Positions 8,778 through 45,650 of a stretch of DNA of 64,000 bases are shown here, one piece after another. A program made the translations under genes and the position numbers. Positions within the stretch are counted from its first letter, which is position 1. Each line of letters starts with the position of its first letter. Origin of the DNA: Lumbricus rubellus (taxonomy: Eukaryota; Annelida; Clitellata; Crassiclitellata; Lumbricidae); the NCBI GenBank assembly GCA_945859605.1, contig OX243819.1, forward strand, positions 9,847,801 through 9,911,800. The letters are read 5' to 3'. The notes beneath the pieces are model-generated. The model had not been told where the DNA came from, did no database searches, and saw only the letters and a program-made list of their open reading frames with translations.

Positions 8778-9539
8778 CTCATAAGAAGTGAAGAACACAT
8801 TTAATAGATGATGTAACACGTTTCAAAGATTTACGTAGATAATGGTTGTTGTCTAGTGGAAACATACTTGGTCGCGGATCCCACGATTGCTGGTTCGACT
8901 CTGCTTAACAACTGTAGACAAGTTTACGAGCGTGTGTCACGTGCCCTGTCAATGAACGGTAGACTTAAATTTGCTATAGATGTAAGTTTGGATGAAAAAT
9001 CTGATTTCATACCCTCGTTCTATTCGGACTGAAATTTAACAGAATCTTAAAACTGAAACAGGACTATATCGAAGTGACGACGGACCTACTAAAAAGACAA
9101 TTAAGTATCTACACCTGACCATTTATTCACAAATCACAACAAAGTATAGGTTGCAGGCCCCAAAAGTGGCCTTAGAGAGCAGGCCAACTGACTATGTCGA
9201 GTTGGCTGCTTTAGTCTATCCACAACGAATTGCTAATTTTTATGGAGGCTTCACACTTGGTGATCGTTCAGATTGTATGGCAGCTAAAATTGTTAATATT
9301 AAGTTGATTTAAACGTCATAAAGAGATTGAAAATGAGTTGGCTTGTCCAGAGGTCGATGACCGACGGTAATACTATTGAGTGGATTAATTGATCATCGTT
9401 TTCTTCTGTGTATGATTTGTATTATCGTTAATGTTGGCTGGTGACCATGGATGGTGCTGTTGTTTACAGTCCTCGCCAATTATTCTTTTCCCGTATATTT
9501 GCATAAAATCTTCATCCACTTCTGCCACCACCTGTAAAA

Positions 9540-10684
9540 AGATCACATAGGCCTATAATTATTATTAGATACAAATTCTATACATCACACAGGTTATTAT
9601 AGGCCCATAATTATACAATAATTTTACATGTATGCATATAGGGCATATAATATGCTTTCAGCATGCCTAAAACGTATTATATAGTTCAAGCAGTCATTCA
9701 TTCATTCATTCATTCATTCATTCATTCATTATGAAGATTTATATAGCGCACCTTCGAGGTTACTACTCAGGAGCGCTCGATCATTAGCCTATCCTCTGGA
9801 CAGTTCCACGGATATTTCCTTCCCGGACATTTTCCTCCTCCTCTGACTTTTCCTCCGACATATTATTATTATCATCATTAAGGACGATGCCGTTGATGTT
9901 AGTGTCCATTTTAATTAATTGTTAATTATTCAAATATATGTGACCTATCACTCATGAAGCTCGCATAGGTGTAGGCTTATTACGCCCCCCGTCTTTCACA
10001 TGCTTTTCACATGAATAGGCTACGATTTCTACAGAATACCCGAATGATTAATAGGTAATTGTAATTGAAATAGCTGAAAGCTGACCGGTCAATAAAGAAA
10101 TTAAACTAAAGTTAATGTGAATTCAAAAGGAATTTCTAGTCTGGTTAATAACGGACCTTTAAGCTACATGTATTTAGATAAGTAATTTAAATAGGCCTAG
10201 GCAATGAAATAAACTTTCTAGTCAATAGAATTTTATGCTCAATAACTAAGCTAATTATTATGCCGAGGCAAATGTCAGTGGCATATTTTCCTACGAGTCC
10301 ACGAAGAAAGGTCACAATATCTATATCATACATGCGTGAGTATTTTACATAAATTATACATGACAAGGTTACTTGGGATGAGTCGCCATCTTCACTTCAA
10401 AGTTTTTATGTCATCTGGGTTTTCACGCTGAGAGCGCTTCTGAGTGGCTAATACTGTTAGAGGCGCTTTATAATTTATAATTTCTCATAATTATACGATA
10501 CGATACGACATAGGGCCTATTATAAATAATTTCTATATACATAATACATACATGCATATATATATATATAATATATATATATTATGTAGCTATTATAGGG
10601 ACATGTCCCTATAGAGCTTAGGCCCTATAGGGACATGTCAAAGGCGTGAAAATGTGGCTGCATGCCTTGTAACGTGACTTAAAT
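9540..10684. other. Intron of unit 1, repeats only
   Basis: This contains a LINE 3' tail at about 9690-9800 on the minus strand ((attc)n plus tatagcgcaccttcgagg), a similar plus-strand tail at 10400-10480, an AT run near 10557, and two copies of ctatagggacatgt near 10596-10640. No coding sequence was found. Confidence 0.45.
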
Positions 10685-11246
10685 AAGAGGTTCTCAACCG
10701 GTGTGTCGCGACACACTGGTGTGTCGCGAATAGACCGGTGGTGTGTCGCGTAAAACTGGTGTGTCACTGGTGTGTCGCACAGAATTGGTGTGTCGCGAAT
10801 TCTCAGAGCATAGCCCGTCGTTCTTGCATTACAATGACTTGATTTCTTCAGCAGTTTGACGGTTGTGGACTATGAAAATTCTTTGCACTCTATTTATCTA
10901 TTGATTCTATTCCGTTTTATCGCAATCTTAAGCACCCCACAATCCCTACATACATAATTATGTAGGTCTACATGAAATAGTTTTGCGGATGACGCGCAAA
11001 TGATCAGTGTAATTTAGGCTTTTAAAGTTATTATGAACTAGAAAGTATTCAGTGTCAACATTTTCATTCATTAGAATTTTCAATAATTTAAAATATAGAA
11101 GCTATTTTAACTTTGACATAGGCCTACTAGGCCTAATTTAATTTAAGTCTAAAGAGATTGACATAATAAGACAATCGCATGGTGTGTCGCGAAATTTCAT
11201 TCCATGTTTAAGTGTGTCGCGAGCTGAAAAAGGTTGAGAACCTCTG
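10685..11246. mobile_element. hAT-type MITE with GTGTGTCGCG repeats, 562 bp
   Basis: Termini are aagaggttctcaacc and ggttgagaacctctg, flanked by the perfect 8-bp duplication acttaaat (10677-10684, 11247-11254). The left end holds several direct copies of gtgtgtcgcg, with inverted copies near the right end, typical of hAT subterminal transposase-binding repeats. No transposase is present. The element lies in the intron between the middle and last exons of unit 1. Confidence 0.88.
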
Positions 11247-11307
11247 ACTTAAATAACCAGGACATAAAATTGAATAAATTATAGTCGATAGACTTGACAG
11301 AACTCAC

Positions 11308-11379
11308 GTTTGTCAGGGGTTTCTCTATTCGCGCCTCCTGCCGACAACATTACGCAACGGGCACCTACGACATCGAGTA
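11308..11379 (-). pseudogene. Middle exon of unit 1
   Basis: On the minus strand the exon follows a strong acceptor (aatttttgttttag) and ends at AAAC|GTGAGT. In the frame matching unit 3 it encodes LDVVGARC and later ANRETPDK, aligning with LDNLNAYR and AKRETINK of unit 3. This frame does not join in phase to the signal exon of unit 1. Confidence 0.55.
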
Positions 11380-11876
11380 CTAAAACAAAAATTAAGTACG
11401 AATTCCTTTATTTTGGACAAAGGAAAGGGAAATCATCGGGAAAGTTCAAACGCAAATGCATCTATATTCATACAAATAAAATCGCCAAAAATAAACAGTT
11501 GGATAAAAAGTGGCTTTTAGCAGAAAAGCCTGAAAAGGTTTTGTATTAGAGAGACAAAAATCGGCAGAACAAATAGGACAAGGAGATTTACGTCTTCAGA
11601 ACTCAATTGGTCTAATGTTAGCTTACATCTACACCCGACAGAGCCTATATAGAAATCTGCAGCTTCTGTTTGGGTCTGTACAAACACTAGATATCAAAGT
11701 TATTTTGATACATTTGAATAGACCTACAGAAGAAGAATGGAGACCCAGATAAAGAAAGGTAAGGCCTACGAGACTAGTTTGCTTACAATAATAATGCAAT
11801 TGTGTCGACTAACACTGTAAATAGACACTAAGTTAAAATTTATTTAAAATCTATGCGAGGAGCGATGAGTGTATAC

Positions 11877-11994
11877 ATGAATGGTTTCATTGCCGACTAT
11901 TTGCGTGTGTACATAAGACGTCAGAGTTACGGCCAGAAGAACGACGACCAGCAGACAAACAGTCGATGGATTCCATGATAACCCCATGCTCAGT
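11877..11994 (-). CDS. Signal-peptide exon of unit 1
   Basis: Acceptor tgttgcag precedes the exon and ATG is at 11987. The 37 codons give MGLSWNPSTV, a hydrophobic core LLVVVLLAVTL and then SYVHTQIVGNETIH, up to a possible GTATAC donor. The LSWNP motif after the Met and the hydrophobic core are shared with units 3 and 4. Confidence 0.65.
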
Positions 11995-12856
11995 CTGCAA
12001 CATTACAAACACTGACAGTCACTGATTGAAGAATAGTCAAAAACAGGCGGTTTCGTGAAAACAGGAAAGTTCTTTATTATTCTATTTCGGTGGGATCTGC
12101 TTTCTCATTAGGCCTAATAGGCAACATGAAATAAGTTGCCTCTATTATGATCATATTTTATGAACTGATTTTATTTTATAATATAATTTGCCAATTCCAC
12201 TGCTTGATATAATTATAGCAGCAGCAAAATCTTAATTTGACATCTATGGATTTGTTGCAGGCCTAATCGCAATAATGTTCGAAGCAGTGTTTAAGTGTCA
12301 TAAGTGATCTCGAGATTTCTTCAGCATCCAGTTCCGGGAACAGGACTAACCACAGACGCTTAATAAATACACGGGTAGATCTACAGGGTCAGAATAATTG
12401 GACGACGTGCAATCCACGTTAGAACGACTACAAGTTCTTACTAGAAATACTTTACAGCCCATGCAGGCCATATGCTTCATGTCGTCTATTTATAAGCAGC
12501 GATGGTTTCAACTGAAACAGTACCGTGTTATAATTAGGCCTATCAGTCTATTCTAGAGGTTCTACAACTCTTGTGTGTCCTACTCAAGAATACATGCCTA
12601 ATGTTATTTCAGCTTCTTGATATTTTTAGCCTTAGTTAGACTTGTTCGATTCTATACATGCAATTAAAAGTTTGGTCTGCACAAACGCAATCGCTGGATT
12701 CCAGCTACAATTTTATCAGCTACGAATCACTTATACAATTGCATCAGACGTCTCATATTTCTAGCACTCGAACAGTACCATAATAATTTTATAGGCATAT
12801 ACTTCAGATAGCTCACGTGTGAATAGCTTAAAGAAACGCACCTACCAGACACTTAC

Positions 12857-12976
12857 CTAGGTTCAAGTGCAGTCAGGTATAGCAAATATCAACTCAGTGT
12901 TGGCTCTCAATGTGGTTGTCTTCAACGTCGGCACGTCTTCAATATAATTATGACAGACGTTGGCTTCGTATTTATA
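12857..12976 (-). promoter_or_regulatory. Unit 1 core promoter and non-coding exon 1
   Basis: A TATAAAT box (reverse of 12970-12976, context GATATAAATACGA) is followed after about 115 bases by the consensus donor CTAG|GTAAGT at 12857/12856. The stretch between them, including caaccacattgagagccaac, aligns with units 2, 3 and 4. I infer a 5' UTR exon starting about 30 bp below the TATA box. Confidence 0.65.
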
Positions 12977-13648
12977 TCCGATAGCAAGTTTTTGAGAACA
13001 AGTGAAGTGAATGGACGCATTCCGTTCAATCATAGCCTAATTATTTATTTCCTCAATGACTTCTTAATCCTCCTCCGCCTTTTCGTCTTTTTAGTTTTCA
13101 TCCTTTTCCTGAATATTTTGATTTTTCCATTTATCATTCAGCTAAATCTCCTTAGGCATTCCGTCTCACTCTGGATAACGCGCAGCTAATAGCAATTAGA
13201 TTAATCGTTCTAAATAATTTATTTTAAACGAACCTGTCATAAAACGTGACATAAATTTATTGATCCCAATGAGACTGGAAAACAATGAAGAGCCATGATA
13301 AGTATGATCGAGTCAGATCACGCTACTCTTGGCACGCACACGTATAATTATATATCTTGGATAATATCGATATGGATGAGCAGCAGCTGGTCTACAACTC
13401 TACATAGCCTAATATTAACGGATATAGCGGCCTAATAAATAAAGAGGCTTAGAGCGGAATGATAGGCCTAAATGGCACATCGCAGTGTTGGCCTAAATCA
13501 GCGTTTGTTTCTTACGCATGCATAAATTTTATTCGCTGATACCGACAATTTTATTTATGAGATGGGTTTGGTAGATTTGTCATATTTGCATGATGGATTA
13601 GTTTAGCTCTTAAAGAAGCCAAGAAGACGTCCAGGCTATCGACATTGA
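12977..13648. repeat. 5' flank of unit 1, paralogous to 32186-32800
   Basis: This upstream region aligns with the flank of unit 3 through to agacgtccaggctatcgaca and gatagattg. Similarity breaks at 13649, where the LINE begins. No gene of its own was recognised. The 79-codon ORF at 12950-13189 is a by-product of the pyrimidine-rich sequence. Confidence 0.6.
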
Positions 13649-15640
13649 TAGATTGGAAGCTCTACGTTTGAGCATTGCCACTCCTCGTGGTCCTGTCACT
13701 CTTTCCACCTTCTACAGACCCGGTTCCTCTTCTCCAACGAGACAATTCTTTGAAGAACTTTCCTCAATTCTGGAGATCCTCATAACGCAAAACAGCCAGC
13801 TCATCATCCTTGGTGACTTCAACGTTCATCTAGAAGAACCTACTCTTCCCAGTTCAGTTCGATTCCTCTCTCAGTTCGGTCTTCGCCAACACATCAATCA
13901 ATCTACCCAACTTTTTGGTGGTCATCTTGATCTTGTCATAACCAGTGATGACGAACAAGTTGACGATCTCACGGTTATGCCTCCAACACTCTCGGATCAA
14001 TCCGTCATACAGTTCATTCTTCCTTCCATCCATCTTCAACCGATTCATTCCATTCGCATGCAGAGAGGATGGAAGTCATTTGACTCTCTAGCCTTCAGCA
14101 ACGCTCTTCGTGATACTCTTCTTTCAAGTTTCAACGCCCTCTCCTGCTCTCGATACGCTCACGGTCGCTCAACTATTTGACCTCTACACCTCCATGCACC
14201 GTGACGAATCTCCTTGACAATATGCTTCATTGTAGCAAGGTATGGACACGTCGTCTTCGTCCATTGGCAGTTTGGATTGATGCTGACTGCCACAGTCTTC
14301 GTCGTCAAACACGATGCCTAGAGCGACGGTATCGTCGGACCAAGGAGTCCAGTGATCGACTGGCTTGGATTTCCCAGCTACGCGCCCTACATCGTCTCTA
14401 CCACCACAAAGAGGCAGCTCTTTTGGAAACGATGGTCTCGCGCAACGCCAAGAATCCCATACGGCTGTGGTCGTCGATCGTGGGGCTTCTTGGCAAGACA
14501 TCTCGCTCCTCTGAAATACCTGCATTCACTGCAAGTGAATTTCTTGAGGACTGTCAACAAAGATCGATCGCCTTCGTGCCTCAACTTCTGATGCACCTCC
14601 TCCAACGTTTACCGCAACGTCAACGGTCTTTGATGATTTTAAACCTGTCACTGAGTTTGACCTTCGGCTATAGCTTTTGCAACTGCTAATTTAAACTCGT
14701 GTGAACTTGATCCCTACCCCCATTTTTGTTATTAATTACATTTTGGATGACTTTAGCCCCTTTTGTCTACATGTTTAATAGGTTCCTCTCTGAAGGCTGC
14801 ATCCCTCCCTCACAGAAACGGGCCCTTGTCTTTCCTTTTCTCAAAAAGCCGAACTTTGACACCAACCTTTGCCAAAATTATCGACCTATCTTAAATCTAT
14901 CCTTTCTTTCTAAGACACTGGAACGTCTTGTCTCTCTGCAGTTTCTACCTTACCTTGAGCAGTCTGGTCTCCTTCCTGCAAATCAATCTGGTTTTAGGGC
15001 CCATCATTCCGCTGAGAAGTCCTCCTTTCTCTTTTATCTGAAATCTATTCTGCTGTTGATAGGTCTGAGGTCACTCTATTGGCCCTCTATGATGTCTCTT
15101 CAGCTTTTGACATAGTCGATCATGATATCCTACTTAAGCGTCTTGAGAACTCCTATGGTGTTAAGGGCCTCCTCTATCTTGGTTCTATTCGTACCTTTCT
15201 GAAAGAACTCAAATTATATATCTGGTGACTCTCGAACCCAATGGGTTCATGTTAATCTGGGTGTTCCTCAAGGTTCAGTTCTTGGACCTCTCTTATTTAT
15301 TCTTTACACAGCTGACATCTCTTCTCTTTTTCGGATTTGTAATGCTGCTGGTCATCTCATTGCTGATGATGTCCAAGCATTTGTCCATAGTTCCTCATCT
15401 TCCCAGCTGCTGTTAGTTGCGCTTATTGAATCCCTTACTAATCATCTCCACTCATGGATGTCTTCTAATCGCCTTTCGCTTAATACTTAAAAGACTCAAT
15501 TTACCTGGTTAGGTACTTCCCAGCAGCTCCAGAAGCTTGATTTCATTCGGCTCTCTGAAAAATTCCCGCTGTTTACCTTCTCTTCAAGTGTGCGGGATCT
15601 GGGTGTTGTACTTGATAGCTCACTTACCTTTACTGAGCAA
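13649..15640 (+). pseudogene. Non-LTR retrotransposon (CR1-like), broken endonuclease and reverse transcriptase
   Basis: 13653-14180 encodes an apurinic-type endonuclease domain: TLSTFYRPGSS near the start, ILGDFNVHLEE, DLVIT and a final SDQSV in place of the usual SDH. 14177-14689 encodes the linker, with RRYRRTKESSDRLAW. Reverse transcriptase motifs follow in shifting frames: NYRPILNLSFLSKTLERLV and NQSGFRAHHSAE (14726-15115), DVSSAFDIVDHDILL (about 15095-15130), GVPQGSVLGPLLF (about 15262-15300), then LIADDVQAF, where the usual Y-A-D-D Tyr is Ile, and NRLSLNT-stop-KTQF. Stops and frameshifts separate these parts, so it is inactive. Its 5' end is truncated at the flank of unit 1, and its 3' part ends at a foldback-type repeat array. 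Confidence 0.85.
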
Positions 15641-15891: not shown

Positions 15892-16190
15892 GGTATCCGG
15901 CCAATACCGCGCACACAATACCGCGCACACAATACCGCGCACGCAATGCCGCGCGCACAATACCGCGCACACAATACCGCGCACACAATACCGTGCACGA
16001 TCGTTACCGCGAATATTTTCAATCCAGCTTATATTTCATACCTATATCTACCTTGATCCAGTTTCTATTTCTCGCTCGTTATTCTCGTCAATCCAGCTTC
16101 TATTTCAGACATAAAATACCTTCATCCAGCTCTTATATCCCAAGCTTTATTTTCGTCAATCCAGCTTATATCGGTATTGACAGTAAACCT
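15892..16190. mobile_element. Foldback-type element with accgcgcacaca repeats, 299 bp
   Basis: It is flanked by the perfect 8-bp duplication gtttacgc (15884-15891, 16191-16198). Unit 1 has the uninterrupted site near 8920 (agacaagtttacgagcgtgt). The left part is an array of about eight 12-15 bp units (aataccgcgcacac). Ends are ggtatccggcc and cagtaaacct. It is non-coding. Confidence 0.75.
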
Positions 16191-16389
16191 GTTTACGCAC
16201 ATGTGTCACGTGGCCTGCCAATGAACGGTAGACCTAAATTGCTATTGATGTAAGTTTAGATGAAAAATCTGATTTCAAACTCTTTCTATTCGGACTAAAA
16301 TTTAACAGAATCTTAAAACTGAAACAGTACTATCGAAGTGACGACAAACTTACTGGTACTAAAAAAACAATTCAATATCAACACCTTAC

Positions 16390-16746
16390 CATTTATTCAC
16401 AACAAAGGTTGCAGGCCCAAATGTGGCTTAGGCCAACTGACTATGCTGAGTTGATTGCGGATGAAATGTTTCAGTCTATTAATTCATAACGAAATGAACG
16501 AATGACTAATTTATATGGAGGCTTCAAACTGGGTGATCGTCCATATTGAAGAGCAGCAATATTGTTAATATTAAGTTGATTTAAACGTCAGAAAGAGTAT
16601 TGAAAGAGAATGAAAATTGGTTGGCTTGTCCAGAGGTCGATGAACGATGGTAACTGACTGGATAGATCATCGTTTTCTTCTGTGTATAATAATCGTTGAT
16701 CACCGCCAATTTCCAAGAGTTTCCTACGGAGGCTACGGTGAGTCAC
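16390..16746 (-). pseudogene. Terminal exon and 3' region of unit 2
   Basis: The block aligns with the same position in units 1 and 3, sharing tatacacagaagaaaacgat, the long 3' UTR and AATAAA. In the unit-3 frame it encodes DSP before a stop. The sequence around the coding part has diverged, while the UTR is well conserved. Confidence 0.5.
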
Positions 16747-16759
16747 CTACAAAAACATC

Positions 16760-18337: not shown

Positions 18338-19216
18338 CACCGTGAGGCATAAAAAACAAAGCCCATAGAAAAATTGTTATAATTGTAACAATATTCAAAC
18401 AATGTCAATGAAATTCAGGAAATTTATAGCCAAATAGCAGGCAATGTAAACGGATTTTCAGTTTGTACTCAAACTGTCCGCCTTTAGCTTCTACGCATGC
18501 GCGAAATCGCTTGCGCCATTCACGCACCGCCGAGTCAATAATTCGCTGGTCAAGATAGTTCCAAGCTTGCATAATTCTTTTACGAAGATCTTCAACATCA
18601 CGGACTGTGGTTTTGTACACTGGTGTACAAAACAACTCATCCTCAGTCTTCAGTGTTACAAACACTGATGAGTTACTGAAGCAAAAATAAAATACAGGCG
18701 GTTTCGTGAAAACAGAGGAGTTCTCTTTTAGTGCATTTTGTTTGTGAAGACCTGTTTTCTTATTCCTGCTTCTCGTAGCAATACTCAAAATGATCGTCTG
18801 TATGTAGCAGTTGGAACTCGAAAGAGATATATTGCAGCCGACCGCCTTTTACGCACACGTCCGACGTTTAGCAAATCCCAAATGGTATCAGTCGGTGCTT
18901 CTTCTCTGGGGCGCACCACGCACGTCAATTCACTTTGTTAAACCGGGGGGTACAATCAACGGCCAACACTACAGAGATGTTTTTACTCATGGAAGGCCTT
19001 CTACCTGAAATTCGAGAACTCTGAATTTTACATTTTCCAGCAAGGTGGTACTCTAGCGTACACCGTACAGAGTTCAAGAAACGATTGCACTTCCGACGAA
19101 TGAAACTCGACTTGGCTTCATAACTCCTACACTATGCATGGCCCCCTAACAGCCCAGATCTGATGAATCCTGTCAATTAAAAAATATGGGTATGCATGCA
19201 GGAAATGGTGTACAAA
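18338..19216. pseudogene. Second mariner-like element, internally inverted and split
   Basis: Begins CACCGTGAGGCATAAAAAAC after TA. On the minus strand, 18620-18450 encodes the transposase C-terminus (TTVRDVEDLRKRIMQAWNYL, later RACVEAKGGQFEY). On the plus strand, 18766-19216 encodes the preceding part (LANPKWYQSV, HFVKPGGTINGQHYRDV, ending EMVYK) with stops and frameshifts. The two halves meet the same reading point (VYKT) but in opposite orientations, separated by a copy of a host repeat (18621-18765). The transposase is dead. Confidence 0.75.
18621..18765. repeat. 145-bp direct repeat, copy 1
   Basis: Nearly identical to 19206-19350, with one difference seen (gagttactgaagc against gagttattgaagc). 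It derives from the segment just upstream of the unit-2 signal exon and lies between the two halves of the rearranged mariner. Confidence 0.85.
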
Positions 19217-19350
19217 ACAACTCATCCTCAGTCTTCAGTGTTACAAACACTGATGAGTTATTGAAGCAAAAATAAAATACAGGCGGTTTCGTGAAAACAG
19301 AGGAGTTCTCTTTTAGTGCATTTTGTTTGTGAAGACCTGTTTTCTTATTC
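19206..19350. repeat. 145-bp direct repeat, copy 2
   Basis: This is the copy continuous with the rest of unit 2 (gattaagttctgtgtatgct follows, as in unit 4 at 43277). Its left edge, ggtgtacaaaac, is shared with the mariner transposase sequence. Confidence 0.85.
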
Positions 19351-21236: not shown

Positions 21237-21380
21237 ATCTACAGCTGTAGCCTGTAGTCAAGACTTTAGTGTAGAATAATTATTGGACGCAATCGGTCCA
21301 CAGTAATGTTCTTAATGTGGCTGTCTCTACGCCTGCAAGCCTTCAGATCGAATGACGGCCGCATATAATTAAATTTTATG
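21237..21380 (-). promoter_or_regulatory. Unit 2 core promoter and non-coding exon 1
   Basis: A CATAAAAT box (reverse of 21373-21380) is followed by a 5' UTR-like stretch (cgtagagacagccacattaa) ending at AGAT|GTAAGT. It aligns with units 1, 3 and 4, so it is inferred by homology. Confidence 0.55.
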
Positions 21381-22425: not shown

Positions 22426-22426
22426 G

Positions 22427-24724: not shown

Positions 24725-27700
24725 AATCCTAAAACTGAGACAGGACCATCGAAGTGACGACGGACCTAGGCCTATACTAAAAAGACAATTAAATATCTGT
24801 ACCTTACCATTTATTCACAACAAAGGTTGCAGGCCCAAATGTGGCTTAGGCCAACTGACTACGCTGAGTTGACTACGGCTAAAATGTTTTAGTCTATTAA
24901 TTCACAACGATTATTACTAATTTATATGGAGGCTTCAAACTTGGTGATCTTCCAGATTGTAGAGCAGCTATATTGTTAATATCAAGTTGATTGAAACGTC
25001 ATAAAGAGTATTGAAAGTGAATGAAAATTGGTTGGCTTGTTCAGAGGACGATGACGGATGGTAACTGACTGGATTGATCATCGTTTTCTTCTGTATATAA
25101 TACATGTATTATCGTTGATGTCCCAAGTTAGCAGCTGGTGACCATAGTGCTGTTGTTTGCAGTTATCCCCAACCATACTTTCCCCAGTCTACATTTGCGT
25201 TAAATTTTCCTCCAACTTTACCTGTAATAAAATCACACAGGCCTATATATATATATATATATATATAGATATATATATAGGGTGGGTCAAAAAAAGACCC
25301 CCCTAGGTTTTTTGCCAATATTTTGGCCAGAAGTTAGAATTTTGAAATGAAATTTTGCAGTCTTGAAGGCAATTTATATTTACACATGATGGCCAGATTT
25401 CATTTAAATATATCAAACAGAACAAAAGTTATATCTGTTTTAGACTTTTAGTGAGGCCACCCCCGTTTTTTGACGATTAAAAAACGAAACGCAAAAAATT
25501 TAGGGTTTTTGCCAATATCTTGACCAAAAGTAAGAATTTCGAAATGAAGTTTTACAGGTTTACAGACACTTGATATTTGCACATTAAGGCCGGATTTCAT
25601 CAAAATATTTCAAACACAGCACAAGTTTAGCACTTTTAGCTGGACCACCCACCGTTTTTGACGATTCAAAAACGAAACGCAACAAAAAGTAGCAAGAACA
25701 CGATTTTATTAAGTCTCGTCTCAAATAACTGTTGTCAAATTAACTTGGTAGTGCTTCACAACTTGTGTTCAATGTGCCCACCACCAGTGCCAAAACTTCT
25801 TTTGAGTCTCTTTGCAAAGTTCTTGATGGACCTGTTGACTAATCTCACAGATTCCTTATTTACCAATTTGATGTCATCTTGCTAAGTGACTTCTCAGTGA
25901 TGTGCAGCTACGCTGGTACCCTGTTTATTATTTTAATAGTAATAATAATGACCATCTGGCAATACGAAGGCTATCTGATAACAATTATTTGAGATAAGAC
26001 TTAATAAAACCGTGTTTTTGCTACTTTTTGCTGCGTTACGTCTTTAAAACGTCAAAAAATGGGGGGTGGCCTCACTAAACGTGATATAACTTTTGTTCTC
26101 TTTCAAATATTTTGATGAAATCTGGCGATCATGTGTGGATATGAATTGTCTTTAAGACTCTAAAATTTCATTTTGATGTTCTTATTTCTGACCAAGATAT
26201 TGGCCAGAATAATTGAGTTGATTTTTTGTTACTTTTTCGTCGGGTTTTTGAATCGTCAAAAAGCGGTGGGTGGCTTCACTAAAAGTGGTATAACTTTTGT
26301 TCTGTTTGAAATATTTGATGAAATCTGGCCATCTGGTGTAAATATGAATTGTCTTTAAGACTGTAAAATTTCATTTCGAAATTCTTAGTTTTGGTGAAGA
26401 TATTGGCAAAAATCTTAGGGGGGAGTCTTTTTTCGGCCCACCCTGTTTATATATATATATATATATATGATTATCTACAAAGCTATTCAATGTATAATAT
26501 ATGTATACAAAACTATAGGCCCTACATGTATAATGTAGTGGATAACTTATATATTACATTTTCTCTTTCTTTGCTCCCTTCCGTCAGAAGCGAAAGCGTG
26601 TGTTGGTCGAGGTCTGCAGGCTGACATGCAGAAGACAGAATGCAGGAATGTGGAAGCTAGGACAACTGAGCAATCTACTTTTAGTATCTCAATATCTCAA
26701 TGGGACGGGGAGGGGGCGGTGGCGGTGGCGTATTGGATAACACACTGCCAATTGCGAGAGAAGGGCTTGCCCATGGTCCCTACGCGGCGACGTGAGGTGG
26801 ATTCGAGTCTGCAACCATCCGGCTGCAAGGCGGCGAGCATACCCACTACAGTGACTACACCACCGTGCCCGAAAAAGTATTGACAAAGTAACAAGGGCAT
26901 AAAACAAAGGAAACTGCAAGCAACATGATAATTGTAGAATATGAAGGAATTTACAGGACTTACGTTTGTTAATTGTTTCTCTCTTCGCGGTACGATATGC
27001 ATTTAAATTATCAAGCTGTAGAAGAAAAAAGCGATAGGAGTAATCTTACATGTCAAGTACAAATGCATCTAAATAAATCGTTAAAATAAATAAGCAGGAA
27101 TATGCGACAGTCATGACCAAGTTGAAATAAAGAGAATATCGCCAAAACATTTAATAACGAGACAGGTATACGGCTACACGTACACATAGGCGGAGACCTG
27201 GGCTGAGGATTGGGGGGACTGACGGGTGGCTGAAGGAAAGACGCGAGATTTTTGGGCGGACGAAAATTTTCCGCGACCCTTTTCTCACGAAAAATTTCTA
27301 TTTTCGCCGCCAAAAAAGTTGAAGACCTTTTTTTAGTCGTTTGGACCAAAAAAGGCCAAAAGTGAAGAATAAATTATATTTTATTCTTTTCAATAAAAAT
27401 TTTTGTTCACCCACCGTGAAAGTCTTAACGCTCAACTTTGGGGGACCAATAGGCTACATGGGCCATCCCCCAACACCTTTTGGGGGACCGTCCCCCTGTC
27501 CCCCTAAGTCTCCGCCCATGCACGTACAGCATGGGGGTCGGTTTTTAGATAAAACAGATTAGGTCATGCAAATCGGGAGAATGATTGCATGGTTGACGAG
27601 AAAAGATGAAAAACATGATAAACGAGAATAGGAAAAGAAACGGAAAGCAGAGTGTATACAAAGAAAAACAATTTTTACAGTTCAAATGAGACAAGATGAT

Positions 27701-30700: not shown

Positions 30701-32800
30701 AGTCCCGCTATCAGAGGAACCCCAGTATCAATCGTTGGTGGAATGGCAGATCAGACATTGTAAACAGATTCAATACATATAGCTTAACTAATTATCTCAG
30801 TGCAAACATATGGGTACTGCTAGTCAGTTAAGAAATAAAAAGAAAAACAAGCTTGAGATTTCCAAACTGAAGTGATCATATTAGCAAACAAAGGTCAGAA
30901 CAGCTATGGCAAAAGGGAAACACTGTATGATACTCTGCAGGTCAGATCATGCACCAGAATACTCAAAAAGAAAGATCTCAGGTTAATACAGTTCAATGAT
31001 CATTCTTCAGTTAGATATAACTTAAGAGCTCTCTTAAACCTGCTCAAAGTTGGAAGGGAGGTTATATCTAGTGGTAAGGAGTTCCATGTGATTGGGCCCT
31101 GGCATTTAATGGAAACTAGCTTCGGATTGATTCTAGCAAAATCAGGTCGGTAATCAGCTGCATGTCTAGTGTAATGTTGATGCACAGAGGACGCCAATTT
31201 AAAATAATTATTAAAACAAGATAAAGAAAGATGAGAAGATAAAGAAAGACGAGAAGACAAGAGCGCTCTAGTTCTCAAATGGTATTTGCGCCTACTTTTT
31301 TCTCACGAGATTCAATGTCGACTTCTTCCGATGTCACAGAAATCGTCAAAGTGATGACAAGAAGAAGAACGATGATGAGCAGACGACCAACGAACGGATT
31401 CCATGATAAACAACTCATCATCAGTCTTCAATGTTACAAACAACGACCAGCTACTGAGGAATAGTCAAAAACATGTGGTTTCGTAAAAACAAACAGGACA
31501 GGTTCGATAATAGTCCATTTGGATAGAATCTATTTTATCATTAATAGGCAACATAAAATGGGTTGTCTCTAGTAGGATGGCCATACGTAGCCTACATTGT
31601 ACATGTACATGTCCCGATTTTTTGTGGTGTGTCCCGGTGTCCCGATAACTTGGTCAACAGATCTAAATTGTCCCGGTTTTTCACAAGAAGGAAAAGAAGT
31701 TGCCAACTTGAATCTTGTTCTTTGTAATGACGGAACAAATTATAGTTTGCAACCAAAAAAAGAAGACGAATAGGAATATTAATTGTCGTACTGTAGTGTA
31801 GAGAGTGTTAGGCCTACATAAATACTGCTTCAACTGCTGCGGCTCGCTGATGCAGCGATGCTGTTAGAAAAAATTAATAGGCTTATTTATTTTATTTTAT
31901 TTATTTCTACATTTCTATAGCGCCCCTTCAAGCTCACTAATCAGATGCGCTCCCGATTACAGCGCGGACACTGCATCGGAGTTTCACGCCGAAGCGTCCA
32001 ATATAAATATATTTACTGCATCTATCAGACACTTGACAGTTATAGGGTAGCCTATACCTGTGTTCAAGACTCAAGTGTAGTCAAGTGTAGCGTTCCTGGA
32101 AGCAATCGACTCGGTGTTGGCTCTCAATGTGTTTGTCTTTAACTTCTGCGCGTCTTCAAAACGACAGACGGCCTCGTATTTATACCCGACAGAAAGCTTT
32201 TAAGAACATCAGACGAATTAGACGCATTCCGTTCAATTATATTATTTCCTGTCTGTCTTCATTAACTTCTTCTTCTCCTCTCCTTTCCATCTTTTCGTCT
32301 TCCTACCTCTAATAATATTCTATTTATCATTCATTTAAAATCTCCTTAGTCATTGCGTTTCACTCTGCGTGGATCACGCACATCTGATAACAATCAGATT
32401 GATCGTTCTAAATAATTTATTTAAACCGAACCTGTCATAAAACGTGACATAAATTTATTGATACCAATGAGACTGGAAAACAATGAGGCGCCATAATAAG
32501 TATGATCGAGCCAGATCACGCCACTCTTAGTACGTACACGTATAGGTATAAGCCCATATTATAGTTATTAGTTATTCTATAATGGCTGCAATAAATAAGG
32601 CGGTTTAGTGCAAAACAATGAATGGCACAAGTTACCGCAGTTTTGGCATCAAGCTGCGTCAATTTCGTATGCACGAATATTTTTTTTTCGCTGAAACCAA
32701 CAATTTCATTTATGAGGTGAATTTGCTAGATTTGCTTGATGGATTAGTTAGCTCTTAAAGAAGACAAGAAGACGTCCAGGTTATCGACATTGATAGATTG
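24725..32800 (-). CDS. Tandem secreted-peptide gene, unit 3 (complete frame)
   Basis: Family not recognised. Minus-strand gene: TATA box 32178-32184, non-coding exon 1 about 32150-32058, signal exon 31425-31296 (ATG 31418, or in-frame ATG 31421), middle exon 27015-26964, last exon from 25221 with stop at 25165-25163, AATAAA at 24815-24810. Phases fit (0, then 1). The product is 77 residues: a signal peptide with MSCLSWNPFVG and a hydrophobic core (about residues 12-28), an acidic stretch VTSEEVDIES, a spacer with Lys-Arg at 52-53, a Lys-Arg-Lys at 58-60, and the C-terminal peptide VGGKFNANVDWGKYGWG. The last Gly could allow amidation. There are no cysteines. Such an architecture fits a secreted bioactive or antimicrobial-type peptide precursor, but this is inference. 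Introns are greatly expanded by a mariner, a SINE, a MITE, an 18-bp array and a LINE. Confidence 0.6.
25163..25221 (-). CDS. Last coding exon of unit 3
   Basis: Acceptor gattttattacag precedes position 25221. The first two bases complete an Arg codon with the preceding exon, then 18 codons (KVGGKFNANVDWGKYGWG) and TAA. The conserved block beyond it (25162 to about 24729), shared with units 1 and 2, is 3' UTR. Confidence 0.6.
25277..26447. mobile_element. mariner-like element with gggtgggtcaaaaa ends
   Basis: Left end gggtgggtcaaaaaaagacc and right end ggtctt-type inverse (gagtcttttttcggcccacc) lie in TA-rich flanks. Each end is a pair of diverged copies of a module (ttgccaatattttggcc, agtgaggccacccccgtttt). 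The minus strand at about 25905-25765 encodes the transposase C-terminus, including SIKNFAKRLKRSFGTGGGHI and ending EHKL. It is non-autonomous and intronic in unit 3. Confidence 0.7.
26690..26885 (-). mobile_element. tRNA-derived SINE
   Basis: Read on the minus strand it starts gggcacggtggtgtagtcac and has a B box gactcgaatccacc. The same SINE body (cctca.g.cgccgc, cttctctcgcaattgg) recurs on the plus strand at 33000-33230. It lies in an intron of unit 3. Confidence 0.6.
26964..27015 (-). CDS. Middle exon of unit 3
   Basis: The strong acceptor cgcttttttcttctacag precedes 27015, and the donor is AAAC|GTAAGT at 26964/26963. The 52 bases encode LDNLNAYRTAKRETINK plus the first base of an Arg codon. 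The unit-1 copy (11379-11308) keeps the acidic start LD, RET.(D/N)KR and the donor. Confidence 0.6.
27185..27520. mobile_element. hAT-type MITE, 336 bp (catgggcggagacc family)
   Basis: Ends are cataggcggagacct and gtctccgcccatg, with the perfect 8-bp duplication cacgtaca at 27177-27184 and 27521-27528. It is related to 7944-8468 and 49682-50091 and lies in an intron of unit 3. Confidence 0.85.
27797..30491. repeat. 18-bp tandem array, about 150 copies
   Basis: The unit is gaaagacgagaagataaa, with a 19-bp variant (gaaagaacaagaagataaa) and scattered substitutions. The plus strand is about 90 percent purine. Because the inverse unit has no stop in any frame, all three minus frames stay open for over 800 codons, which is an artefact. 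Two more units lie at 31219-31262, separated by a LINE insertion. The whole array lies inside the intron between the signal and middle exons of unit 3. Confidence 0.95.
30492..31217 (-). mobile_element. LINE 3' fragment (CR1-like) inserted in the array
   Basis: On the minus strand, 31210-31000 encodes the LINE C-terminus: HYTRHAADYRPDFARINPKL, then CQGPITWNSLPLDITSLPTL and FKRALKLYL, ending in a stop. The 3' end is aataaatggtatttgattga with a (gatt)n/(gattt)n tail at the left edge. Array units on both sides show that it inserted into the tandem array. Confidence 0.75.
31296..31425 (-). CDS. Signal-peptide exon of unit 3
   Basis: Acceptor acattgaag precedes 31425. ATG is at 31418 (a further in-frame ATG at 31421). 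The 41 codons give MSCLSWNPFVG, the hydrophobic core LLIIVLLLVITLTISVTS and the acidic EEVDIESREKK up to a GTAGGC donor. Unit 4 has the same donor and start. Confidence 0.65.
31430..32057. repeat. Intron 1 of unit 3
   Basis: Parts align with unit 1 (ggtttcgtaaaaacaaacagga; ataggcaacataaaatgggt). 31895-31960 is a LINE 3' tail on the minus strand. Nothing else was recognised. Confidence 0.45.
32058..32184 (-). promoter_or_regulatory. Unit 3 core promoter and non-coding exon 1
   Basis: The box TATAAAT in GGGTATAAATACGAGG (reverse of 32178-32184) lies about 125 bp above the donor ACAG|GTATAG at 32058/32057. Between them lie gacgcgcagaagtt and acattgagagccaaca, conserved among units. The start site is inferred at about 32150. 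Confidence 0.65.
32186..32800. repeat. 5' flank of unit 3, paralogous to 12977-13648
   Basis: Aligns with the unit 1 flank up to gatagattg at about 32800, beyond which unit 3 continues without the LINE found in unit 1. No coding content was recognised. Confidence 0.6.
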
Positions 32801-34929: not shown

Positions 34930-35960
34930 CAGATACCAATCATGAAAGAAAGACGGCCGCATATTATTAAATTTTATACACGACAGAAAGCACCAAGGTG
35001 AACTGGTTATTATTATAATAGTTCTGTTTGCTTCCAAAGGAAGCAAACAGGGGCGGATCCAGAGGCCAATTCGGCCATGGCCCCATTAAAAAAATGCATG
35101 GGACGTGGCCTCCGCCCATTTGTAATTGTAATTGTAATTGTAATTGAACATTTATATAGCGCCGCTCACAGATTCAGTAGCGCTCCCGACCCTAGTTAGC
35201 ACTTCCCCTAACAAATAGTATAGTCTTCAGGCGTTTCCTAAACAGAGGGAGAGAGAGACTGAGAAGCTCAAGACGCAGCTTGTGCGGAAGACGGTTCCAG
35301 CAAGATGGGCCAACATAGGCAAAGCTTCTGGATTGGGCAGTAGCACCACGCATGCGAGGAACCACAAGGAGGCCATTAGCTGCTGAACGAACATGCTTTA
35401 TATATCAATGCAGCGAGATAAGGCAAGAGAGAAAAAGTAGCACGCGGCTAGTGAGGTCATAGACTGTATTTCCAAGAGCTTAAGACCAGACGACGGTGCA
35501 TAAAATAGTATATTTTTCTCGAAATTTTTACCAAAGGACTAAAAGAGGTCATCAGTTTTTTTGGCGGATAAAAGGAAAAATTTCCACACCCAAGGCCCAA
35601 GGCCAAGAATTTTTCTTTCGCCCCTCTTCGAATTTTTTTTATTCGCCACAGAACGGATACATTCTGTTCAGTCACATTTCCTGCCTACCACAATTGTTGT
35701 CATATCTCCGTTTCCTTCCTCCTCTTCTTCGTGCTTCCCTTCTGAATTATCCAATTTTTCTATTTATCGTTCATTTCAATCTACAATTACTTCATCGCAG
35801 CTCATTTGTAAGCAAACAGAACTATTATAATAATAATCAGATTTATCGCTGTCAGTATAATTTATTCCAACTGAACCTGGGACAAAATGCGACATATGGA
35901 TAGTTTCAGTCTGTCCTAAATCAGGATAAAGCAGGAGGTTCCGCGGTGAACCTGCGATTT
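34930..35960 (-). pseudogene. Promoter fragment of a fifth family unit
   Basis: A TATAAAAT box in GTGTATAAAATTTAAT (about 34974-34981, minus strand) and the following gcggccgtct match units 2 and 4. Homology stops shortly below the box. The upstream flank aligns in pieces with 44640-44940, interrupted by a LINE tail at 35122-35460. No exons were found. Confidence 0.5.
35122..35460 (-). mobile_element. LINE C-terminal fragment with (attac)n tail
   Basis: The minus strand encodes VPRMRGATAQSRSFAYVGPS, then CWNRLPHKLRLELLSLSLPL and FRKRLKTILF, then the gcggcgctatataaatg tail and (aattac)n. This is the GP..WN.LP...FKK.LK motif of CR1-like elements. Confidence 0.65.
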
Positions 35961-36640: not shown

Positions 36641-36644
36641 TATA

Positions 36645-38846: not shown

Positions 38847-38850
38847 TATA

Positions 38851-39230
38851 CACCGTGGTTAAAAAAAACTAGGCCAAATTGTTTTGCATATATCTTTAAT
38901 ACCTAATGACATATCAAGCCAAAATGTTCCATATAATTAGAGAATTGGACTAAGAATATGATTCCAAAATTTCATGGGATAAAGTTGAACGGATAAAAAG
39001 ATATGAATATTTAAACTTCATTTGCCGAAATTTCAGTTTACAAGCAATTTTCTGTCAGATTCGATAAAATGTTTCCTTATTATCTCCAATGCCTGATGAT
39101 TAATCATTCTACAATTTTCCAGCTATGTAGGGAATTGAACTAACAACATGACCCCAACAGTGTGGTTTGATTATTTAATTAAATAACATGCTCAAAATGT
39201 CCTCCTCCTGCTTGCACGCAAGCCTGCACC
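38851..39230. mobile_element. Truncated mariner-like element
   Basis: Begins CACCGTGGTTAAAAAAAACT after TA and matches the inverted repeat of 17316-18316 for about 230 bp. It then reads antisense into the transposase end (inverse of ACVQAGGGHFEH) and stops near 39227. The other end is absent. It starts directly at the right TATA of the Ginger-type element. Confidence 0.75.
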
Positions 39231-40195
39231 ACAAAAGTAAACAAGGATTGCGGTTATTAAAAGATAATAAGTTCTTATGTAGACTATAACTTCGCCTCTA
39301 CTGTGGTTTAGAACATACAACTGAAGAAGTTATTATACTGCCACGGATGATTTAACAACTTTAATGCGTGAGAATCAGTAGTTAACGAGAGTCAAATCAT
39401 ACGTAATTCAATTCGGCATGATGTTCCATAAATGTTTCTAGACCAGTACCAGAACAGTTCTGGCGTCGTCATCATAATATTATGTTAAGCTGACGATTCC
39501 AGAAAGAAGAAATGAATAATAATTATGAACAATTCACACTATACTGAACTGCGAATTGAAGAAAAAAATAACAGGTGTCAAACACTGATGCACGTAAAGT
39601 TTTTTGGTTGGCAATGTAGAAGTACATGTAACTATGGGATCCAAATAGAGACTAGGGGTTGAAGCCCTCTCGCAATTCTCACCTTGACTCTACCCAGTTT
39701 TCGGAAAATTCCAGTCGGCTGCAGAGTATGATGTTACCGAACAAAAGCAGCGTCGTCTTTCAGATGCATGCCATTGTTGTATTCAGGGAATATTTTCCCC
39801 ATTGCAGAAGCGCCAGGTGCAGCACCCATTTCCGAGAGCCCAACAAGGAGCTGTGAAAAAACGATACACAAACAAAAGGTACGTATTGAGACGCATGAAT
39901 GCTGAGAAGCTATAGGCCTAATATAGTATATTATCCGTTCTTAGTTATTGAAACAGCTATTAGCAGCAGCCGGTGTAAAATTTGGGAGGGTCCCATCCAA
40001 AGTTTCACACTCGAAATTAAATTTTAAAACTAACCTATTTCAATTTTTATTATTTTTCCCCGTTTGGCTCTGTTATTATGCTAAGATTTTTTCTATTTCT
40101 TCAGGCTGCTAGAGTACTAAACAAAATGTAAGCTTATCGTTAAACATCGTTTCCTCTCTTGTAGGCTATTATGAATTATAACCATCCACACTGAA
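39231..40195. other. Unassigned sequence with one candidate exon
   Basis: 39808-39878 on the plus strand is bounded by ttttccccattgcag and AAAAG|GTACGT and is open in two frames. It lies about 320 bp left of the segment duplicated from 1-210, so it could be a copied upstream exon of the membrane-protein locus. Nothing else was recognised. Confidence 0.3.
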
Positions 40196-40430
40196 ATTCT
40201 ATCAAACAGTTGGGTTATTAAATTTTGACTAAAAACGAAACCATTATTTTAATAAATTGGTAGACTGTAACGTGAAGCGACTCAAATTTTGGTTAGGGGC
40301 TTAGGGCCTACTACGGTTAGCCTAGTCTAAAAGAAGAATAAAAAATTCAAAAATGCTGAAATGTTAGCCTGGGCGAATACCATTGGGAGAATTCTCTCGC
40401 GCAAAAGTTATTGAGATGCCTTCGTTCAAG
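40196..40430. repeat. Copy of segment 1-210
   Basis: See 1-210. Both copies end at gagatgccttcgttc. A 61-codon minus-strand ORF at 40532-40347 begins with a hydrophobic stretch, MIIAGLVVASD, but overlaps this repeat and has no support. Confidence 0.7.
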
Positions 40431-41538: not shown

Positions 41539-41544
41539 TATAAT

Positions 41545-43010: not shown

Positions 43011-43016
43011 GCCTAC

Positions 43017-43155
43017 TGCAATCCCCTGAGTCGAATCATTTCCGGCTTCTTTTTCTTCTGATGTCACAGAAATCGCCAAAGTGATGACAAGAAGAAGAAC
43101 GACGATCAGCAGACGACCAGCGAACGGATTCCATGATAAACAACTCATCCTCAGT
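43017..43155 (-). CDS. Signal-peptide exon of unit 4
   Basis: The acceptor aacattgaag and ATG context are the same as in unit 3. The first 30 residues are almost the same as unit 3 (V to A at 10, I to V at 16, T to A at 25), while the following residues differ completely except for the initial EE. Confidence 0.65.
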
Positions 43156-45650
43156 CTTCAATGTTGCAAACACTGACAAGTTACTGAAGCAAAATAAAAT
43201 ACAGAGAGTTTCGTGAATAACAGAGGAGTTCTCTGTTAGTGCATTTTGTCTGTGAAGACCTGTTTTCTTATTCGATTAAGTTTGGGCTATGCTGATTGTG
43301 TTTTTATGAATAATGGTCCAGTAAATTTCATGCAATAAATCCATTGGATGTGTATAATTGTATATGACCATTCATCCAAGATTGGTTCAAGCGTAGCCTA
43401 ATAAGTAACCTCAAGATTTCGACAAAACCCCGCAAAAGCAATCGCGGCAACAATTGAGTTTAATCACAGACGCTTATTTAAAAATTGCTATGCATGGTCA
43501 AAATCAAACGACTTGCAATCTGCGTTAGAATCGCTGCAAGTGAACCTCAAAAAGCTTCATGGCTTCTTCAGAAAAGCAGCGCTAGTAAAGACAGTGCTAT
43601 CTAATACAATCCGGGATCTAGCCTACATCTCTTGTGTTAAATGATTTATCTTCTAATAATTATTATTGTTTCGGCTTCTCTTGAGTCTTATCCAGAATCT
43701 AGATCTACAGATTTCATCAAAATATTATGTTGTGAAATTCTGCAACTGCAATCGCTCCAATCCACTTAAAAGATCTTATCAGCTTCAGGCTTAGCCTAAT
43801 TTTATATAATTGCGCAGGAGCTGTCGCATTCAGGGCTGCACTGTTAAATTTGGAGGTGAGTACACGCTGACCGGGAGAAAAACCGACCTTTTGGGGCCGA
43901 AATTTCTGACGACCTTTTTTTGATCATCCGGCCAAAATCTCGGTAAAATTTCCTCAATTTGCCGTCCGAAAATGCTGATGACCCTTTTTTAGTCATTCGC
44001 TTTGAAATACATCTTAAGCAGCCGCATGCACCCTGATTTACTAGCGTGTACGGTGTACCCTGCCTTTTTTACCCGCGTAGCCTATACCCTACTTTTCGGG
44101 TGGTGAGTATACGATGCCCTTTTCCCCCGGAGGTGAGTATAAGCCTACGCCGTATACCCGCGCACACCATTGATTACAGCCCTGATCATGTTCCATTGTT
44201 TAAAACCAGTGTCATTCAGACAGTTCAGACAGGTGACCGGTGACAGGCTTAAAAACAAACACGCAAAAGAAACTTACGTATATCCAGCTGTAGTCAAGGC
44301 TTCTAGAGTAGAGTTCTTGGATGCAATCGGTCCACAGCTCTTAATGTGGCTGTCTCTACGCCTGCAAGTCTTGAGACCGACAGACGACCGCCTTTTATTA
44401 TCATGGGCGGAGTTTATCAGGGGCTAGGGGGGCTAAGCCCCTCCAAGAAGGCCCAAATTCAACTTTTTAACCATGAAAATGGTATCCTTTTTCTGGGTTA
44501 GCCCTCCCAATAAGGCCTGGACTCGGGGTTAGCCCCCCCCCCAAGAACGGAAACCAAACTCCGCCCATGTTTATTATTAAATTTTATACACGACTGAATG
44601 CACCAGAGTGAACTGTAGGCCTACCCGTTCACCCTGACGTATTCAGTTCAGTCACATTTCTTGCCTACCACATTAAACAATTATATTCTCTCTCTCTCCT
44701 TAATTCCTCCTCTTCTTCGTCCTTCTTCTCCCGAATAATGGTTTTTGCAATATAATTTCAACCTTTAGTTAATTCATCGCATCTCATTTGGAAGCAAACA
44801 AAACTATTATAATCAGATTTGTCATTGTCAATTTTGATTCCAACTGAACCTATAGATAATATCTATAGGTTCAGTTGGAATCAAATGTCGTATATTATAC
44901 GCCCGTCCCAAGCCAGGATAAAGCAGGAGGTTCCGCGGTGGACTGCAATCCACCCGGCGGTTTTTACTCTGGTTCCTCTACTTGGGGTGGTGAATTTGGG
45001 TTTCTGGGAGCGGGAGAAGCGTCCGGTTTGGTGGTGTTTTGGGCGGACAGCAACCGGTCGCTGAGCCACCGAAGACACCCATGTGATGGGCCATTTTTTG
45101 GCGACCGTTTTTAGTCTTTCGGTCAATATCTCAGAAAAATATACCATTTTCGATACTAACAAAACTGATGACTTTTCTTGTATGCATGTACCAAAAACCC
45201 ATAAATTTTTCTGAGGGGGGATTGTTGCACATTGAGTTTTTTTGAGGGGGGATGCTAGGTATTTACAATTTTACATACATGCAACACCTCGCCAGGAGAA
45301 TTCATTCCTGGGGAACTCTTCCTAGAAACGTCTAGATTAAAAACTGCCGAACCGGGTAAAAAGTCACACATCAGAAACGACGCAACGATTGAACATATAG
45401 CCGAGGGCTAACATCAAACGCCATAGGCTAACACCTACATTGAAGTCCACTTGGGAGCCACGATTGGGCTTAGACCTACTGTATCAAGTACCAGCACACG
45501 TTTTTTGCGAATTAAAGCCTTTGAACTCCGAAAGGAGCAGAAACGAAACATGCGCAGTTTCTGTTTTATTGGGAGGGGGGGAGAATCGATGATACGATCG
45601 ATAAATTCACTGACAACGGCAAAGGTCTAGGCAATAAAATTATACATAGA
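43017..45650 (-). CDS. Tandem secreted-peptide gene, unit 4 (5' half only)
   Basis: Minus-strand unit. The TATAAAAT box is at 44581-44588 and non-coding exon 1 ends ATAC|GTAAGT at 44278/44277. The signal exon is 43155-43017 (ATG 43148) with 44 codons: MSCLSWNPFAG, the core LLIVVLLLVITLAISVTS and a polar end EEKEAGNDSTQGIA, then a GTAGGC donor as in unit 3. The signal exon is intact and differs from unit 3 mainly after the signal peptide. No downstream exons could be found. A 168-bp MITE has inserted between the TATA box and the expected start site. It is probably a partial or silenced copy, though an expressed gene with diverged 3' exons cannot be excluded. Confidence 0.5.
44278..44588 (-). 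promoter_or_regulatory. Unit 4 promoter split by a MITE
   Basis: The TATA box GTGTATAAAATTTAAT lies right of the MITE (44402-44569), and the conserved 5' UTR (aggcgtagagacagccacat) lies left of it. In unit 2 the same box and UTR are contiguous. The insertion pushes the box about 176 bp away from its original start site. Confidence 0.65.
44402..44569. mobile_element. hAT-type MITE, 168 bp, in unit 4 promoter
   Basis: Ends are catgggcggagttt and aactccgcccatg, with the perfect 8-bp duplication tttattat at 44394-44401 and 44570-44577. It is a close relative of 4602-4749. Confidence 0.88.
44833..44885. repeat. Perfect 25-bp inverted repeat with 3-base loop
   Basis: Positions 44833-44857 pair exactly with 44861-44885 around the loop aat. 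The arm contains ttccaactgaacctatag. Paralogous flanks at 21610 and 35865 carry only one arm, so it arose within this copy. Confidence 0.9.

Follow-up and report, generated by a model that had tools for sequence, protein, structure and literature searches.

Which kind of product do the repeated small genes at this Lumbricus rubellus locus encode? In a 64,000-nucleotide stretch of contig C9 (9847801-9911800; hereafter the window), a first-pass annotation had described a gene family for small secreted peptides, repeated in tandem within 8778..45650 and riddled with transposons. We confirmed the family, in which promoter, untranslated exon and signal exon are conserved, but not its limits, since the array runs past 45650 and more units lie to the right of a catalase gene. 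With moderate confidence, we read the locus as tandemly arrayed genes whose small secreted products would carry disulfide bridges and resemble peptide hormones (neuropeptide-like), with birth and death of copies; at the level of sequence, shared promoters and signal exons, cysteine-bearing exons with a common intron phase, paralogs and purifying selection all point this way. Searches covered the genome (787,420,884 bases, 368 contigs) and, around the window, an extended region of 244 kb (60 kb added on the left and 120 kb on the right), in which coordinates above 64000 continue the window numbering.

As annotated, self-BLAST of the window and alignments gave four related minus-strand units (u1-u4) and an orphan promoter fragment, alike in block order and orientation. 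Beyond the right window edge, past the catalase gene, we found three further minus-strand units (u5, u5b and u6) and an inverted unit on the plus strand (u7); the array straddles the catalase gene, which is transcribed the opposite way. The block order and strand of u1-u4 are repeated in u5 and u6, and aligned blocks differ by ~9-30% between units (self-BLAST). Runs of N limit the view at 75526-80525 and 158026-163025 (5 kb each) and at 52826-53025 (200 bases), the 5-kb runs hiding the u5b promoter and perhaps the u6 last exon. The parts of the window units are as follows, a slash marking a splice junction and 3'UTR the 3' untranslated region:

12967..12976, minus strand: u1 TATA box (TATAAATACG), from alignment and coordinates
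12857..12945, minus strand: u1 non-coding exon 1, donor CTAG/GTAAGT, transcription start inferred from the TATA position
11847..11994, minus strand: u1 signal exon, ATG at 11987 (MGLSWNPSTVCLLVVVLLAVTLTS...), 3' limit uncertain
11308..11379, minus strand: u1 exon 3, ending ..RETPDK/C, with a GTGAGT donor; a TAG closes it when it is read in phase 0, the phase of the other units
9105..9531, minus strand: u1 terminal exon and 3'UTR, AATAAA near 9122-9127, 3' end approximate
21237..21372, minus strand: u2 promoter (TATA-like) and exon 1, donor GAT/GTAAGT, from self-BLAST and alignment
18622..19236, minus strand: u2 signal exon, broken after ATGAGTTGTTT by unrelated sequence, from self-BLAST and alignment
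16389..16746, minus strand: u2 terminal block, peptide-coding part missing relative to u1 and u3, from alignment
32175..32184, minus strand: u3 TATA box, from alignment and coordinates
32058..32155, minus strand: u3 exon 1, donor ACACAG/GTATAG, predicted transcription start
31296..31425, minus strand: u3 signal exon, M(M)SCLSWNPFVGRLLIIVLLLVITLTISVTSEEVDIESREKK, proposed donor AAA/GTAGGC (phase 0, weak)
26964..27015, minus strand: u3 exon 3, LDNLNAYRTAKRETINK/C, donor GTAAGT, between signal exon and terminal block
24790..25221, minus strand: u3 last exon, (R)KVGGKFNANVDWGKYGWG and stop (TAA 25165-25163), with conserved 3'UTR and AATAAA, 3' end approximate
44278..44401, minus strand: u4 TATA-like ATAATAAAAGG and exon 1, donor ATATAC/GTAAGT, from alignment and coordinates
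43017..43155, minus strand: u4 signal exon, MSCLSWNPFAGRLLIVVLLLVITLAISVTSEEKEAGNDSTQGIA, proposed donor GCA/GTAGGC
39783..39850, minus strand: u4 last exon, (x)PCWALGNGCCTWRFCNGENIP and stop, C-x6-CC-x4-C
34948..35003, minus strand: orphan promoter fragment of the u2/u4 type, from self-BLAST

The product is best read from the last exons. Ranked acceptors downstream of exon 3 gave (R)HCWDVTDVCCMWGIC in u5 (66839) and (A)DCADVGDICCTLGICD in u5b (74130), and a blind search with their cysteine pattern, acceptor score and phase added u4 (39850) and u7 (88247, plus strand; (R)HCWDVMDVCCILNAC). All four exons read C-x6-CC-x4-C, u4 and u7 alone being independent of the making of the pattern. This exact spacing occurred four times in the 244 kb versus ten times in total over 200 simulated sequences (0.05 each, maximum 2); a looser form of the search also returned two long, unrelated frames, and gave up to four matches in 12 simulations. 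At the DNA level, four of the six pairs among these exons matched at E <= 0.1, over the exon and its acceptor tail only (u5-u5b 1.6e-9, u5-u7 1.1e-7, u4-u5 8e-6, u4-u5b 2.4e-5).

The core of this peptide is also encoded elsewhere in the genome. The end of u5, used as a protein query, gave four places, namely its own locus and a single place on C18 (27.235-27.240 Mb), on C2 (near 28.695 Mb) and on C5 (3.147-3.155 Mb), in a search that is insensitive: the query missed u7, u5b and u4, and the u1 frame as query recovered u1 plus a chance match (E 2.78) while missing u3-u6. A degenerate DNA pattern for CWDVxDVCC had five matches in 787 Mb (u5, u7, C2, C5 and C18), all in last exons of this kind, and its reversed control had none in the same 787 Mb. 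The C2, C5 and C18 copies are each preceded by an acceptor, keep the phase of the array exons and stop after the last cysteine; candidate upstream exons in the right phase, chosen on phase, splice sites and the NKR end, end RINK/C(R) on C2, RINK/A(R) on C18 and TRNK/A(R) on C5. The protein database search returned a single match among 784 scored (E 2.8e-7), to P0121, a JGI protein of 131 residues from a 1255-base contig, in which a single frame joins a signal-like N-terminus, by way of GIRKR, to HCWDVTDVCCMWSIC, and which ends GIRKRHCWDVTDVCCMWSIC. Its end is identical to C5, and it shares 14 of 15 residues with u5 despite unlike propeptides. Because its single frame crosses the site that is split in the earthworm genes, P0121 is probably a spliced transcript. 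A search of PDB by sequence with the 21-residue end of P0121 gave no match, and the joined u3 precursor found no homologue in the protein database.

Conservation of this peptide was assessed with a dN/dS-type codon comparison of six mature sequences over 15 codons, with u4, u3 and the extra last residue of u5b left out. The six pairs among C5, C2, C18 and u5 gave 0.03-0.10 nonsynonymous versus 0.79-1.50 synonymous changes per site, and pairs with u7 or u5b gave 0.17-0.36 versus 0.49-0.95. The mature peptide of u5, C2, C5 and C18 is thus under strong purifying selection, with synonymous sites near saturation. The earlier idea that the mature peptide is the fast-evolving part is thus not supported. 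A last exon of its own, absent from the first-pass annotation, encodes the mature peptide; the variation noted just after the signal peptide is real, but is best read as propeptide. Fast evolution fits the altered copies of the array (u4, u5b and u3) better than u5 and its three dispersed paralogs.

Upstream of the last exon, the units share a promoter and a non-coding exon 1. Self-BLAST matched these parts at 12888-13658 and 32105-32803 (73%, E 2e-122), at 21165-21371 and 44190-44400, and at 21413-21621 and 44642-44848; alignment and coordinates place TATAAATA in both u1 and u3. In u5 (72159) and u6 (82322), a promoter and an exon 1 with a GTAAGT donor precede the signal exon, and by coordinates ~119-132 nucleotides separate TATA box and exon-1 donor in u1-u6. 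The annotated plan of a TATA box followed by a non-coding first exon with a GTAAGT-type donor thus held for promoter and exon 1, which aligned, but not for the u3 donor, which is GTATAG. Further upstream, ~190-375 bases before the TATA boxes of u1 and u3, a block of 181 nucleotides (13172-13352 and 32370-32550) is 89% identical, versus 70-73% for the whole aligned exon-bearing blocks of the two units; a weaker match lies at 35828-35896. This block is a possible enhancer.

The signal exon is likewise shared. Self-BLAST matched 11886-12151 with 31311-31578 and 31323-31491 with 43053-43222 (86%), and the M..LSWNP exon with hydrophobic core reported for u1, u3 and u4 reappeared in alignments and coordinates as MxLSWNP or MSCLSWNP. 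To the right of the window follow the minus-strand signal exons of u5 (71197), u5b (75445) and u6 (81756). A profile made from u1, u3, u4, u5 and u6 found the left-out u5b at E 5.7e-7, the next-best match among the open frames of the 244 kb being at E 0.71. In six units a hydrophobic core follows the start methionine and the profiles match one another, which makes this a candidate signal peptide. Searched as DNA against the whole genome, the u3 signal-exon block matched only u3, u4 and u1 (3 candidates, 3 scored), which at the sensitivity of a search that skips very common words argues for a local family and not a dispersed repeat. In u2 the broken signal exon occurs twice (18622-18651 and 19207-19236), within a 145-nucleotide intron/exon piece present in duplicate (18621-18765 and 19206-19350, 99%, 585 nucleotides apart); both copies end at an identical junction with unrelated sequence, and the duplication is either a recent event or an assembly artefact.

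Between signal and last exon lies exon 3, the end of the propeptide. Its ..K/C end followed by GTRAGT has two exact matches (u1 and u3) and none in 100 shuffles, for a pattern drawn from those same two exons, and the corresponding exons of u5, u5b and u6 end GNIRK(R). The assignment rests on the common GNIRKR/RETxxK ends, position and phase. A dibasic site stands directly before the mature peptide, as NIRKR in u5 and u5b and, with no assumption about splicing, as GIRKR in P0121; candidate sites read RINKR (C2 and C18) and TRNKR (C5), and u6 has the site without a last exon. One scan match for exon 3, at -2838 on the plus strand, was set aside as chance, given 1-5 matches per simulation. Between the u3 signal exon and exon 3, at 27784-30491, we also observed ~149 copies of an 18-bp repeat (ATAAAGAAAGACGAGAAG).

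Taken together, the proposed gene would comprise exon 1, a signal exon, a propeptide exon running to a Lys-Arg pair split by a phase-1 intron, and a last exon that would code for one C-terminal peptide of ~15 residues with the C-x6-CC-x4-C spacing, as in u5. Cleavage by a prohormone convertase would release this peptide, which would then acquire two disulfides, predicted two-disulfide products being that of P0121 as well as HCWDVADVCCMWNIC and HCWDVSDVCCMWNVC. The layout (signal, spacer, dibasic site, one peptide), together with a mature part that is fixed while the spacer is free, suggests a hormone- or neuropeptide-like precursor; the full splicing pattern, transcription in L. rubellus, cleavage, disulfides and receptor signalling we infer. 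The C9 array would then have expanded locally, with promoter and signal exon retained in copies that otherwise change, some apparently by decay (u1 and u2), one by loss of the propeptide exon (u4), and others by change of the peptide (u5b, u4 and the Cys-free u3).

Known neuropeptides offer partial parallels. The CCWamide/agatoxin-like peptides of protostomes, with eight conserved cysteines and an amidated aromatic C-terminus, share with the present genes a short precursor, a signal, a non-conserved spacer, an intron-split basic site and a Cys-rich last exon (PMC8557429). Unlike them, the present peptides have four cysteines and no amidation Gly directly after the last one, and the intron falls after base 1 of the basic codon instead of between bases 2 and 3 (PMC8557429). 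In the array, the stop comes directly after the last Cys or after a tail of a few residues without a final Gly (D for u5b, NGENIP for u4). CLCCY, whose name we take to spell its motif, was compared by name; the motif is absent from the mature sequences found here, and a distant relationship is possible. CLCCY and other lophotrochozoan Cys proneuropeptides resemble our peptides in being precursor-derived products of annelids and molluscs, some with possible disulfides (PMC3890597, PMC6425005 and PMC8398477).

Several observations weigh against the peptide-hormone reading. In their coding part, the last exons of u1 and u3 do not match the four-Cys exons; for u6 no last exon was found, with 5 kb of N just beyond; and for u7 neither a signal exon nor a promoter was found in the 244 kb. 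Searched blind, the exon-3 pattern alone was not significant (6 found versus 1-5 in each of 12 simulations), and by the same chance measure the u7 exon 3 is only a candidate. Signal-exon donors are weak in u3 and u4 (GTAGGC), u6 (GTCTGT) and u5b (GTCGGT), and the sequence does not settle the u5 signal-exon donor or its junction to exon 3. For C18, C5 and C2, the exon-3 candidates were picked from 6, 3 and 3 listed, without a control, and the signal exons are candidates only; each codon comparison has only ~6-8 synonymous sites, so the ratios are rough. Finally, no unit of the window is both complete and of the four-Cys type.

This last point bears on whether all window units are dead copies, the pseudogene outskirts of an array, function being limited to u5, possibly u5b and u6, and the dispersed genes. 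We hold this to be evenly balanced, and it is compatible with the peptide-hormone reading. In u2 the signal exon is disrupted and the coding part of the last exon absent (alignment); in u1, exon 3 is closed in phase 0 and the last exon meets a TGA after six codons in the u3 frame (the split Arg counted). No exon 3 was found for u4, and the u3 last exon has no cysteines. Against this, u1, u3 and u4 have a promoter, first exon and signal exon of intact appearance; the u3 frame stays open all the way from its ATG to the stop (MMSCLSWNPF...ETINKR and then its last exon), with a strong acceptor and GTAAGT in exon 3; and u4, with an intact signal exon and a mobile element directly upstream of its promoter, keeps the exact cysteine spacing. 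The four window units have the look of an array end where copies decay or have been altered.

Among the terminal blocks, self-BLAST matched 8911-9416 with 16180-16690 (E 1e-113) and 9043-9557 with 24725-25247, and the terminal block ascribed to u1-u3 was borne out by alignments, GTGAATAAATGG being present in all three. The u3 3'UTR matches u5b in register (29 nucleotides, 83%, E 5.8e-4), so the u3 last exon may be a changed form of the four-Cys exon, though the coding parts are unmatched. We rejected another frame of the u1 last exon (VVAEVDEDFMQIYGKR...), in which u3 stops after ten codons, also because the break in u1/u3 similarity falls at the stop of the other frame. The u3 last exon was likewise dropped as the mature peptide of the family (Gly/Trp-rich or amidated), since the four-Cys exons make u3 the odd one out.

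A second alternative is that the peptides are not hormones but host-defence or deterrent secretions, of skin mucus or coelomic fluid, with conotoxin- or frog-skin-like precursors; we regard this as unlikely. Frog-skin peptides have the same precursor layout as conotoxins, and we know of no venom organ in earthworms. The tandem array, the retention of signal and promoter while mature copies change (u4, u5b and u3), and the precursor layout would all suit such a role: conotoxin genes, too, are a family in which a conserved signal is followed by a propeptide, a basic cleavage site and a single peptide at the C-terminus, although the available part of PMC4278219 contains no four-Cys C-CC-C framework. 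In Pfam, the Conotoxin model (PF02950) aligned over residues 12-84 of the u5 precursor model, but at E 0.17 and with 13.3 bits, far under the 25.1 cut-off, and P0121 had no conotoxin match. Unlike conotoxins and frog-skin peptides, the mature core is here the most conserved part across loci, and in u5, C2, C5 and C18, spread over four chromosome-size contigs, it is near-invariant across saturated synonymous change. Those four peptides contain two Asp but neither Lys nor Arg, and on inspection the mature peptides prove neutral or acidic, which sets them apart from typical antimicrobial peptides. Lumbricin, also a small earthworm peptide and an antimicrobial one, is proline-rich, whereas the present peptides are rich in Cys, Trp and Asp, with no Pro in u5, u5b, u7, C2, C5 and C18. 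A role as defence peptide or toxin is possible above all for the altered copies. That the repeated blocks are instead a dispersed mobile element or assembly duplicates is highly improbable, because, however full of transposon pieces the region is and despite the 99% repeat in u2, order and strand are constant in u1-u4, u5 and u6, similarity forms islands on promoter, exons and 3'UTR, the units have diverged, and the u3 signal-exon block matched only its three window copies genome-wide, very common words being skipped.

Returning to the peptide-hormone reading, we advance tentatively a more specific form of it, namely a hitherto undescribed family of signalling peptides, 15 residues long and with two disulfides (HCWDVxDVCCMWxxC), for which the C9 array is a nursery of new peptides. 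Duplicated promoters and signal exons would then be retained while last exons diverge, and u3 would yield a Cys-free, potentially C-terminally amidated peptide, VGGKFNANVDWGKYGW-amide (from ...GKYGWG-stop). The four-Cys peptide is apparently undescribed in the sources searched; among the matches listed in literature text, HCWDV stood only inside other text, apparently as initials. To our knowledge, the peptide hormones of oligochaetes have been catalogued poorly, and gene finders easily miss short precursors that are split, as here, over several exons. The family would extend beyond one species if P0121 comes from another oligochaete. A near-invariant 15-residue peptide on four chromosome-size contigs, with an environmental-sequence match, is a candidate for synthesis and receptor search, and the array allows birth, decay and re-use of peptide genes to be read beside an anchored gene, catalase:

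53622..63981, plus strand: catalase gene, first ten exons read, between u4 and u5

Over these ten exons, the catalase shares 86% identity with the Eisenia fetida enzyme and 97% with a JGI protein; the end of exon 6 at 57842 looks like a GC-type donor (AAG/GCATGT). At the left end of the window, 1-6485 on the plus strand holds a gene-like series of exons that ends in a transmembrane-like segment and a short tail (LVCLFITAVLAGFFFWPKC...). Paralogous fragments also lie outside the known exons (1-207 with 40196-40430, and 7400-7585 with 45441-45652; self-BLAST), which suggests that duplication took in more than the peptide genes. In the window, scans against Rfam and for tRNAs gave no matches.

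Among nine window frames compared with Pfam, four matched, all to transposon domains (long interspersed nuclear element (LINE) endonuclease, reverse transcriptase and DDE_3), two of them under the curated cut-off. An open frame of 202 codons on the minus strand (50741-51346) looks hAT-transposase-like but had no Pfam match. At 36638-38853 lies a 2.2-kb element with ~190-bp inverted repeats (95-97%) and a minus-strand open frame of 395 codons, with 26-residue tandem repeats and no Pfam domain. The element next to the u4 promoter is the following:

44401..44570, strand unassigned: short mobile element, an insertion of 169 nucleotides at 44401-44569 immediately before the u4 TATA-like sequence on its upstream side, with relatives at 4601-4749 and 47401-47545

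All three copies have CATGGGCGGAG-type ends, and the one upstream of u4 is flanked by an 8-bp repeat, TTTATTAT, read by eye.

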